A stretch of 64,000 nt of DNA. Source: Zoroaster sp. YZ-2022. Its lineage: Eukaryota; Echinodermata; Asteroidea; Forcipulatida; Zoroasteridae. Below are positions 33,401 through 42,400 of this stretch, piece after piece (the first letter of the stretch is position 1; each line of letters opens with the position of its first letter). The stretch is taken from assembly GCA_029582265.1 (NCBI GenBank), contig CM055821.1, positions 47,361,473-47,425,472 of the forward strand. Direction: 5' to 3'. Position numbers and translations under genes: made by a program. The notes under the pieces were generated by a model that saw only the letters and a list, made by a program, of their open reading frames with translations, was not told the origin of the DNA and made no database searches.

Positions 33401-36400
33401 ATGCCGGATATTATTATGTAAACAGCACAACAAAACAAAACAAACCTGCTTCAGGAATTCTTCCAGTGCCATTTCTCCCTGTGCTACATTGATGACATCA
33501 CGTACGATAGCCTCATTCTTCTGTAGATCTACGTCCCACACCAGACCGAGGGTGAGTTCAGACAGGACCCAGTTGACACGAAGACGTTTCATCAGCTGCT
33601 TCCAATGACGTTCTTTTAAGGCCTCTGATTTCAACTCCACTACCAGCATGTTGACCTGATAATTGGGCAAATGTTAATGATGTGAATGGACATAGTTATG
33701 GTCTACTTATCAACTACACAAAAACTCATTATTATCATCATGAATGAAATTTGTTTTGTAAACTTTTATAGTCCTCTAATTAAAATCTCCTTTTAAAATT
33801 AAATCTTGATAGTTTGAATTAAAGAAACTTATTAAAAACATTTGTTTTAGTGACATTGAGATATTAAACAAGAACCAATATATCAAGTTTTCTTCTAGTT
33901 CCTTTTTTGGTTGAAAAATTACTTGCAATAAGTATGTGAAACAAGTACAAGTATTTGTGAAAAATTCACAAAGATTAACAAAAGGTTGTTTCTCAAATAT
34001 CGCTTACAAAAACAGTATGATAAACATACCAACAAAATAATTTTACAGGACAAAGTGAACCACTAAAAGTACACTATACCTTGGCGTATCCCTTCAGGAC
34101 TCTCTGGACATGTTCATAGGATGCATACTGCCGAAGACGTCCTGGTAAACTTTTGAGATTGGTCATCAAACCATCCAGACTCTGGCGTAGCTTACGAGGT
34201 GCTACAGACAGCCATGGTTTCTCCTTGAGCTCATCGATTTGTTCCCAGATACGAGCAAGTTCACACCAGACACCTTTAAGATCTTGGAGTTCCTCGAGGG
34301 CGACTTGGACTCGTTCCTCACTGGGGCTCACCACACCTGGTCAGAATACAGAAATAAATTAACTCAAAAGTCTCACAGGATTATTAGTCTTTATTCTTCA
34401 TGTATATCTTGACAAATATTTTATCAAACAGCAACTACAAAACGACTCAATTCGAATAAATGTTTATAATATTCATGATATAGGTAAAAATTAAAGTCAC
34501 GTAAACATGATCAAATTGAACTTTAATATTTTGGTCCAACCAAAATTTCTTAGGTCAACAAAATTACCTGTTGGATCTTTTTTTATCTAAACCAACAACA
34601 AACATATGTCCTTTATTCGCTTTATGTAAATGTCATACAACCCTTTAAATCATAGGCCTACAAGAAACATGACATTTATGTCTCACCAATCTCCTGGAGT
34701 TCCAGAGCTTCCTTGGCCTTACTGATGTTGTCCCGATCTTCTTTAAGACGACCAAACTTGCCCTCAAAGATGGTCAGGCCATTGGTGGCTAGGTCTGGTC
34801 TGAGTTCACCATCGATCGGTTTGTTCTTTTCCCATTCTGTCAGTAGTTCTGTGGTACGTGCCTCTACGGTGCGATCTTCCGTCACGATCTTCATCTGCAG
34901 ACTAGCAACCTTTAGACCACACAGGAACCATAAAAACATTCAAAATCAAGCAAAATACGAACATTTCATGGCATGAGTTTTCATAAGTGTTTTCTTCATT
35001 GAAAGCAAAATTATACAAGTATAGAGGAAAGTGTACAGGAATATGGCCAAAAAACGACAAAAGTCCTCAAATAAAAATGCAAACCAAATTTAGCTGCACT
35101 TCAAAAATGAAATGAGATTTTATAAGTAATTGGAAAAGGAATGAAAAGGACAATGTTTTAGACTGACTTTGGTAATAGGTAATAGTCACTGACTGATCAT
35201 ATTGGTTCATATTGAAGAGGATACTAATGACTGTTTATTTACCTGTTAGATAGTGGTATCTTTACGTTTCATAATCTCATTATAAACTGAATATTTACCT
35301 GTTAGATAGTGGTATCTTTACGTTTCATAATCTCATTATGAACTGAGTATTTACCTGTTAGATAGTGGTATCTTTACGTTTCATAATCTCATTATGAACT
35401 GAGTATTTACCTGTTAGATAGCGGTATCTTTACGTTTCATGATCTCATTATAAACTGAGTATTTACCTGTTAGATAGCGGTATCTTTACGTTTCATGATC
35501 TCATTATAAACTGAGTATTTACCTGTTAGATAGCGGTATCTTTACGTTTCATGATCTCATTATAAACTGAGTATTTACCTGTTAGATAGCGGTATCTTTA
35601 CGTTTCATGATCTCATTATAAACTGAGTATTTACCTGTTAGATAGTGTACCTTTACGTTTCATAATCTCATTATAAACTGAGTATTTACCTGTTAGATAG
35701 TGGTATCTTTACGTTTCATGATCTCATTATAAACTGAGTATTTACCTGTTAGTGGTATCTTTACGTTTCATAATCTCATTATGAACTGAGTATTTACCTG
35801 TTAGATAGTGGTATCTTTACACTTCATAATCTCATTATAAACTGAGTATTTACCTGTTAGACAGTGGTATCTTTACGTTTCATGATCTCATTATAAACTG
35901 AGTATTTACCTGTTAGATAGCGGTATCTTTACGTTTTATGATCTCATTATAAACCGAGTATTTACCTGTTAGATAGCGGTATCTTTACGTTTCATGATCT
36001 CATTATAAACCGAGTATTTACCTGTTAGATAGCGGTATCTTTACGTTTCATGATCTCATTATAAACTGAGTATTTACCTGTTAGATAGCGGTATCTTTAC
36101 GTTTCATGATCTCATTATAAACCGAGTATTTACCTGTTAGATAGCGGTATCTTTACGTTTCATGATCTCATTATAAACTGAGTATTTACCTGTTGTTAGA
36201 TAGTGGTATGTAAGACTAATTGCGGTGACACCATGTGGAATCTCAATTGAGTAGTAATTAGTTCTGAAAAGAACTGGGGGTATCTTTACGTTTCATGATC
36301 TCATTATAAACTGAGTATTTACCTGTTGTTAGATAGTGGTATCTTTACGTTTCATAATCTCATTATAAACTGAGTATTTACCTGTTAGATAGTGGTATCT

Positions 36401-39400: not shown

Positions 39401-42400
39401 TACGTTTCATAATCTCATTATAAACTGAGTATTTACCTGTTAGATAGTGGTATCTTTACGTTTCATAATCTCATTATAAACTGAGTATTTACCTGTTAGA
39501 TAGTGGTATCTTTACGTTTCATAATCTCATTATAAACTGAGTATTTACCTGTTAGATAGTGGTATCTTTACGTTTCATGATCTCATTATAAACTGAGTAT
39601 TTACCTGTTAGATAGTGGTATCTTTACGTTTCATGATTTCATTATAAACTGAGTATTTACCTGTTAGATAATGGTATCTTTACGTTTCATAATCTCATTA
39701 TAAACTGAGTATTTACCTGTTAGATAGTGGTATCTTTACGTTTCATGATCTCATTATAAACTGAGTATTTACCTGTTGTTAGATAGTGGTATCTTTACGT
39801 TTCATAATCTCATTATAAACTGAGTATTTACCTGTTGTTGGATAGCGGTATCTTTACGTTTCATGATCTCATTATATGCTCCCCATTCTCCCTCAATGTT
39901 ATCCACATACAGCCAGTTAGAGGGAAACTGGTAACGCTGACGTTCCAACAACTTCTGCCCTCCATGGTACATCTAAGATACAAGTAAAAAAAACAAGGAT
40001 ATGAGTGTGTAATGAAATCGACTAATGCTAGATTCAAACACGCGGCCACTTGATTACTGTACCAATGTTCAGGATTGAGTCCACACTTGATTAGCACATA
40101 TTTCATGCTTATTTGCTTCAATGTTATCTTTAATATATTCATCTCGCTAGTTTTCTTTCCTATGACCATATTTCACTATGTACACCACACAATATGTGAC
40201 TATGCGTATTACAATATGTGTCACACTGTGTGTCTCTGTATTCCGATGTGTGTCCCTGTGTACTTGCTCTGCAAACCGACCGAGGATTTATAACAAAGAG
40301 AACAAAAGGTCCCCGGTTCTTTGTTTTCAGAGGTCCTCGGAAGAACGTTGTGTACAAAACCAATGGAGATTGCTTCAAAAAGTCCAAATACATTGAGAAC
40401 ATTTGAAGGGAACAATAGAGGTCCTCAGTCGTATTGGAAAGCATGATTGGTGTGCCCCACTATGTGTATCACTCTATGTGACTTACCTCAACCTGTTTCT
40501 CCCAGGCTCTGTGTTTCCTCTTAAGGTTCTGTACATATGTGATGAAGCTGACAGCATCAGAGGTACTTGCTGTGTCTACCGAATGCTGCTCTAGCTCAGT
40601 ACGAGACTAATGAATGTTCAAGATACGAACAATACGTAAGATGTAATATTAACTGTTGAATAATTAAGACTTGAAACTATATTTTAGAATCACATTTTCA
40701 AAAGAGATACTACAGTGGTATTTTTCTGCAAATTTAAGGCTGGTTCATACCGATTTTAAGTAAATTTTGATGTCATCAATTTGTGGTGAATGAAATCGCA
40801 CAAGGTGAAATGTATTCAACTTTTGTGAAACTCAAGATTTGATGCCACCATTCAATTAACGTTTCACAAAGTATAAACCACTGGTAATCGTCTTACCTTA
40901 GCGAGGGAACCATGGAACTCAGCCATCTCTGTTCCCAGGTTGTTACCAAACTTGCTGAGGATCTCTTTGTGCCAAGAATCATACTTCATGTTGACCTTGG
41001 ATTGAACTTTGCCGTAGTCCACCACGATAGGACCAAACTCCTTACGTGTTTCTGCATTGTCAAAGGTGGTACGTGATTGTCTGAAATGGTAATGAACACA
41101 AATGTTTTATTAATTAAAATAATGTAATGACATTAAAAGCATATATCTTTGAAGCTTTCATACATAAAAAAATGAAAATCAAGCAATAATATTAGCACAC
41201 ATCTTATATAGCAGAGCACACTAAATCCCCTGATGCAATAAGATGGATATAATCTGTTGGTGGTTTTAATGCAATGTTAATATTATTATATCAAAGCATA
41301 ACCATCAAATATTCCACAAGGGAAACTGACTCGGTATATAAATTTTTATAAAATTAAATTTTTTGAGTGAACACAGAAAAACAGACTGAAACAGAACTCA
41401 AAAATGCAACACGACTAAATCTGGCGGTAGGTTCGAGTTCTACTTTAGTAAACCTGTCTGTATGCACTCCAAAAACGTTTTTTTTTTTAAATGCAGTGAT
41501 TTTTTCCCCACCAACATACATAAGACCATCAATCAACATTTATTAAGTTCACATTTATTGTACCTGATTTCTACAAGTAGTTGCATCCATAGCTTCAAGT
41601 CATCTCCAATCCTAGTGTATACATTATGTGGTTGCATGTCCCATAGTGACTGATATTGAAGCCATTTCTGTACATAACAAAAATATGTCATACATCAACT
41701 TGGAACCTTAAATGCAATTTATTTCCATATCTCATACTATAAAACAGTATGAGAAATTGTGAATAAATAAATAAATATGTTATGTGGATGTAAACATATG
41801 GATGTAAACATATTTTATTCAAAACGAATATTTGTCAAATTTAAATCTCCCTAACTAGATATTTTCATTGGAATATCAGTTAAGTGTTAATATATTCTAC
41901 TACTCTTGCAGGGCAACATTTAAACCAAAGCAAAGTTAAGTATATCTACACCAACCAAACTAATAACATTCAGAGAAAATCAGTTAGTTTTTAAAAACTA
42001 TATATATTTTGTTATCAAACAGTATCTTGCAATGTTTGGATCTGACTTTTTGTGTTAAAATTTTTGTGTTTAAACATAACTGAATACATCATAAATAACA
42101 GTTCTGATTTGAAAAAGTATTTGAAGAAAAAAAACACTTGATAAACATGAAGCATGTCACGACAAAAAATTTAAATATTTATGAAAACATGAATAAACAT
42201 GACTGGTAATGAATAAACAGCACCCACCTTGACATATTCCTGGACCTGTCTCAAGATCTTCTCTATAGCTGCATAAGGTTCCTCCAAGACCTGAGGTCCA
42301 TCTGGTAGCTTACTAAGAAGAGTACGATACACTGCAGTCTTATTGGATTCATGCTGCTCTATACCGACTTGGTAGCGAGAACTCTCCAGACGCTTCAGAC

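Follow-up and report, generated by a model that had tools for sequence, protein, structure and literature searches.

The stretch analysed here (the window) comprises 64,000 nucleotides of the sea star Zoroaster sp. YZ-2022 (contig CM055821.1, positions 47,361,473 to 47,425,472). Its minus strand carries 69 exon pieces of a cytoplasmic dynein 1 heavy chain gene, which account for residues 1-3847 of the 4648, and intron 22 of this gene holds a large minisatellite whose units repeat the end of exon 22 together with its splice donor.

A donor-bearing minisatellite in dynein intron 22

The gene was modelled by spliced alignment to an Acanthaster planci protein (P0001), the closest one among the matches listed (92% identity over query residues 700-1250, the next-ranked being an echinoid protein at 80%). 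Once one tblastn piece had been replaced by hand with two exons, a position was assigned to 67 of the 69 junctions, with poor quality for two. Junctions 6 and 54 were unsolved; the poor ones (41 and 42) were omitted from donor statistics, where 65 were used, but retained among the 134 splice sites tested for copies. The label exon 22, used in a preliminary description of this DNA, is correct when coding exons are counted. Cytoplasmic dynein is essential in animals. Since the exons were open and highly conserved (with the above identity to Acanthaster in the searched region) and no other copy of exon 22 was found (see below), the gene very probably yields a working transcript, and it looks functional and intact. 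At 4922 bp, intron 22 exceeded all others among the 65 introns that were solved cleanly, whose median was 456 bp.

Tandem Repeats Finder (TRF) reported a period of 56 and 81.9 copies for the array (Table 1). Splitting it at GTAAATA yielded 81 donors, i.e. the true one (GT at 39831) and 80 decoys. Each unit consisted of about 45 bp of exon end followed by about 14 bp of intron start. Both the unit composition and the presence of some 80 extra CAG/GTAAAT donors had been noted in the preliminary description and were confirmed by unit make-up and alignment. Unit lengths were mostly 56 bp (n=54), 59 bp (n=17) or 52 bp (n=6), with single units of 55, 62 and 133 bp. The longest owed its size to an inserted interspersed repeat, and no other unit left room for a missed degenerate donor. 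This interspersed repeat had ten further matches in the window, one of only 28 bases.

The decoys shared a C-to-T change that creates TAA in the exon frame (80 of 80), and most lacked one CAA, while exon 22 itself was unaltered; gene conversion from array to exon would therefore destroy exon 22. There were 31 distinct sequences among the 80 units, arranged in structured blocks, and exact repeats of several units occurred inside the array (532 bp at offset 1922 and 271 bp at offset 1816). Judged from the sequence, this combination is the mark of a growing minisatellite.

Donors were scored with a matrix built from the gene's other donors. The GTAAAT core was intact in all 81, and 78 were CAGGTAAAT, identical to the true donor and equal in score; the remaining three were weaker (two with CGG and one with CCG ahead of GTAAAT). 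The other 64 solved introns, with 38,585 bases in total, contained only three GT sites scoring that high, which excludes a chance origin of the array donors. As predicted sites, the decoys are thus good donors at a density far above background. Reading through beyond the first donor led to TGA after nine codons and none of the 80 decoys kept an open frame, so that the early stop previously anticipated for decoy use applied to every one of them.

It had also been suggested that a closer match of the unit to some other source would speak against its derivation from exon 22. A DNA search of the assembly (1,001,958,528 bases in 616 pieces) with exon 22 and the unit gave 36 matches, all within the dynein locus. 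Among the best candidates, the only ones scored in this search, there was neither a second exon 22 nor any match elsewhere, and another genomic source for the unit was rejected.

Junction copies in the dynein gene, a control gene and the genome

Six of the 134 dynein splice sites had local matches, five of them besides a simple repeat: donor D22, acceptor A33 (three copies), D49 (two decayed copies), A51 and D58 (two copies each). A13 was dropped, its matches being an AAT microsatellite. For D49, matches in the site test ended at the junction, and a longer alignment crossed it. A general scan of the gene recovered 13 local duplication loci, five of which bore a junction by alignment; D62 made a sixth, its alignment stopping just before the junction and continuing by eye. 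Use of either upstream copy of the intron 33 acceptor would shift the frame. The second exon 58 donor was in frame and would add 31 residues with no stop, presumably close to where the stalk coiled coil begins.

As a control, the ryanodine receptor gene from this genome was examined (a scan of 154 kb with 67 clean pairs of junctions; Asterias rubens reference protein P0121). It displayed 43 local duplication loci, two of which included a junction (D52 and D56), with intact decoy donors in both. Eleven sites had matches in the site test, of which D52, D56 and later D6 were counted. A55 was dropped as a short exon-start match whose offset, 160 nt, equals that of the D56 copy; A13, A41, A46, A51, A63, A64 and A68 were dropped because none of the three nearest matches of each spanned the junction. 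Intron 6 of this gene (C6, about position 7,171,340) contained a 72-bp minisatellite of about 17 units in two blocks. Its units carried CAG/GTAAGG and matched the exon 6 donor region over 20 of 21 bases; this 21-base match (D6) fell below the scan rule and was counted apart, its array being among the 43 loci. The 72-bp unit had no match in the dynein window, nor in the 200-kb ryanodine receptor region outside intron 6. It probably descends from exon 6, and each of the two genes examined thus carries a many-copy array that resembles its own intron's donor.

Genome-wide, three copies of AGGTAAGT spaced by 28-58 bp gave 168 overlapping matches (69 + 99) versus 792 (414 + 378) for the reversed pattern, i.e. 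no enrichment of strong-donor arrays over this control; the pattern misses the dynein GTAAAT array. Collapsed by eye, the listed subset of these 168 amounted to at least 17 arrays. Among 63 arrays, a strong donor was present on the sense strand in six (two belonging to one family) and on the antisense strand in one (also a sense one), with 2.3 expected from shuffled units. As no excess over the reversed control was observed, donor arrays belong to a general wealth of minisatellites rather than to a favoured class. Long arrays with perfect AGGTAAGT in many units were recorded at C12:25830977-25832944, C13:7893797-7894929 and C7:5189951-5190498.

Other repeats of the window included a 24-bp minisatellite of 69 copies between exons 54 and 55 (11781-13444), open in several frames, and an adjoining array of thirteen 63-bp units (10508-11335). 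A run of some 140 AAT repeats (100% match) was also present at 9350-9768, and its length warrants caution.

Table 1. Positions in the window of the dynein array, related splice junctions and interspersed repeat copies
Feature	Position	Strand	Remarks	Basis
Exon 22	39972-39832	minus	141 bp, phase 0, end ...CAA CAA CAG	spliced alignment to P0001, translation
True exon 22 donor, CAG/GTAAAT	39826..39834	minus	10.24 bits, rank 20 of 65 dynein donors	
Minisatellite of exon-end and donor units	35236..39876	minus	81 donors, 80 decoys	TRF, unit split
Decoy donors (80)	35237..39775	minus	first GT 39772, last GT 35242	
Interspersed repeat within one array unit	36208..36281	none	once in array; 74-77 bp	
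Exon 23 and intron 22 acceptor	34687..34909	minus	223 bp, begins 34909; last decoy 333 nt away	
Intron 33 acceptor and exon start	26790..27014	minus	three copies, 72 and 76 bp apart	
Exon 49 end and intron start	15595..16040	minus	true copy and two decayed, donor lost	by eye (donor loss)
Intron 51 acceptor and exon start	14488..14631	minus	one extra copy 107 bp upstream	
Exon 58 end and donor	7543..7729	minus	93 bp x 2	
Exon 62 end	5613..5775	minus	one decayed copy 109 bp downstream, degenerate donor	by eye (donor)
Interspersed repeat pieces	43897-43965, 32532-32600, 32678-32746, 2486-2554, 940-1009			
Interspersed repeat palindrome	57760-57867			

Probable origin and possible effects of the array

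We favour, with a probability of about 0.75, an origin of the array in a chance duplication spanning the exon 22 junction, which expanded to a minisatellite and is tolerated since the first donor is the one chosen under exon definition. A tandem duplication with breakpoints in exon 22 and about 14 bp into intron 22 would have spared the real exon while adding a second donor downstream of it. Growth to a minisatellite of about 80 units may then have proceeded through slippage and unequal exchange. Exon 22, with its 141 nt, would be recognised across the exon and, as suggested by work in human cells, the donor nearest to the upstream acceptor would win among identical sites; the array would then be removed along with intron 22, being tolerated and not selected.

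This scenario is supported by the derivation of the unit from exon 22, by the exact multi-unit repeats inside the array and by the recurrence of junction-bearing duplications, whose combined number in the two genes is close to that of random placement (see below); in ABCA7, moreover, the decoy seen in use is the one retaining a single unit. Splice-site choice as studied in human cells is consistent with it as well. According to PMC9225289, of two near-equal 5' sites the downstream one is preferred under intron definition and the upstream one under exon definition, and with two identical sites under exon definition the upstream one was used exclusively in five minigenes. Given the length of intron 22 and the size of exon 22, the first donor should win, with a likely leak through donors 2-4 (exon lengths of 200, 256 and 312 nt), and not through the whole set of 80, that would lead to early stops; skipping of exon 23 would be a further likely leak. 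Since 333 nt separate the last donor from the acceptor, a leak by intron definition is also conceivable. Of the readings offered in the preliminary description, splicing that favours the first donor is the best supported, in agreement with the exon-definition minigenes (PMC9225289). Recursive splicing or use of the units as micro-exons was set aside by eye, the units being devoid of a pyrimidine tract and corresponding to a 44-nt frame-shifting piece with stops.

Several observations weigh against this interpretation. Under intron definition, the last donor, 333 nt from the acceptor, would have the advantage, and the introns of this gene are mostly short. Across human events, the downstream site was preferred in about 60% when strength was not corrected for, and after that correction the upstream site took 60% and not all (PMC9225289). 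The GTAAATA core was unchanged in 79 of 79 aligned units (the insert-bearing one omitted), although about 18 of the 56 unit positions, counted by hand, were variable; the split itself used GTAAATA, but unit lengths leave no space for missed copies. The post hoc probability of such an invariance at seven core positions was 0.054, so that constraint on the donor core is marginal and weak. Finally, junctions were duplicated in the dynein gene more often than under random placement (2.5 of 13 loci expected, P 0.074 for five and 0.018 for six). In these simulations, unit lengths were the smallest alignment offsets, three dynein ones being replaced by the TRF unit (24, 31 and 44 bp), and placements lying wholly in exons were excluded. 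The ryanodine receptor gene deviated in the opposite direction (4.7 expected, P 0.13 for two or fewer), and both genes combined held seven, eight or nine junction-bearing loci versus 7.2 expected (P 0.59, 0.43 and 0.29, respectively). With a suggestive result in one gene, the reverse in the other and a neutral sum, junction duplication as a special process was rejected; the counts gave no sign of a purging of junction copies by selection either.

The first alternative is that the array restrains dynein output in a length-dependent manner, with more exon 23 skipping or intron retention from longer alleles; such an effect could exist even if it was never selected. The 223 bp of exon 23 mean that its skipping breaks the frame. 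According to PMC5954066, skipping of exon 19 in human ABCA7 increases with the length of a variable number tandem repeat (VNTR) in intron 18 and is 4.1-fold on an expanded allele, and a cryptic donor was able to provoke intron retention in VWF (PMC8706089). Yet the use of the ABCA7 decoy donor was unchanged by VNTR length (PMC5954066), VWF cryptic donors at other positions gave no retention (PMC8706089) and only the upstream of two identical donors was used in exon-definition minigenes (PMC9225289). A brake of this kind would thus seem unlikely.

A broader proposal, which we regard as slightly more doubtful still, is that duplication-rich starfish genomes keep generating splice-junction arrays (81 donors in the dynein gene, about 17 in the ryanodine receptor gene) that act as length-variable splicing rheostats in essential genes. 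If true, intron-internal donor arrays would be a common and fast-mutating source of expression variation, and would provide a test of choice among dozens of identical sites.

The array, or most of its length, might also be an assembly or polishing artefact, since reads of 150 bp, as produced by Illumina sequencing, map poorly inside 56-bp units. This is highly improbable in view of the 31 distinct sequences in structured blocks and of the interspersed repeat present only once; no N letters were found in the window. According to PMC10394057, the assembly was built with wtdbg2 from Nanopore reads and polished with 150-bp Illumina reads, and Nanopore fragments above 20 kb, long enough to span 4.6 kb, had been selected. 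Exact copy number and unit variants are therefore less certain than the array itself, known from one assembly of one animal.

Least probable of all is a selected function, such as U1 loading against premature polyadenylation or the timing of splicing: judged by eye, most of the 5' end of U1 pairs with the donors (ATACTTACCTG was found at the start of a U1 gene in the genome) and their cores were all intact, but the invariance of these cores was marginal, the single AATAAA of intron 22 lay outside the array proper, a 241-nt piece displayed no RNA fold (z 0.13) and perfect AGGTAAGT triplets did not exceed their reversed control. With no junction enrichment over both genes in addition, the U1 binding or spacing role raised in the preliminary description was not supported, and there is no good evidence of a selected function for the array.

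A tolerated chance duplication therefore remains our preferred explanation. With one exon facing 81 donors, 78 of them identical over nine bases, in a functional-looking essential gene, the locus provides a natural test of how a 5' splice site is chosen. Should the first donor prove to be used cleanly in RNA, cross-exon proximity alone can defeat 80 competitors. Moreover, the genome offers junction copies in numbers of 2, 3, about 17 and 81, both fresh and decayed, on which selection can be tested.

Relationship to known donor-containing repeats

The preliminary description knew of no array of this type and size in a dynein gene. No dynein or starfish array of such a kind appeared in the literature titles and abstract openings searched, subscription papers being mostly outside this set, but the claim of novelty does not stand in view of close precedents in human ABCA7 and IFI6. 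The ABCA7 intron 18 VNTR is polymorphic (25-bp unit, about 12 to 427 copies) and its unit includes the exon donor; the decoy seen in use retains a single 25-bp unit (PMC5954066). As in ABCA7, the dynein array abuts an exon whose donor is part of the unit, the true donor being that of the first unit, and extends over thousands of bases. Likewise, its donors look usable throughout. Differences were also apparent. The ABCA7 unit lies in a C-rich region and starts at the donor GT, and no coding exon is described within it, whereas most of the 56-bp dynein unit derives from coding exon. Moreover, the ABCA7 VNTR is known from population and RNA data, the dynein array from assembly sequence. For the length-dependent skipping of ABCA7 exon 19, the predicted counterpart would be dynein exon 23.

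In IFI6 (6-16, G1P3), a minisatellite gives multiple donors (Turri 1995, cited in PMC4526556), and the likeness resides in downstream repeat units serving as donors. In IFI6 the repeat units are in use and yield isoforms of the protein (PMC4526556), in contrast to the dynein decoys, each of which would give a stop. As for the VWF decoy site (PMC8706089), the likeness is that a competing donor may disturb a real one, but it arose by a single point mutation, was shown in minigenes and is context-dependent.

The dynein array is also like known tandem duplications across an intron-exon boundary that copy splice signals. It differs from boundary duplications that yield introns in that no new intron is evident and the copies remain in the parental intron: the protein-guided model needs one intron between exons 22 and 23, and by eye the units lack a pyrimidine tract. 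On its testable sequence features, this real and large array is best seen as a member of the donor-containing VNTRs such as that of ABCA7. The kind is already known; new here are the coding-derived unit, the host gene and the recurrence in the genome.

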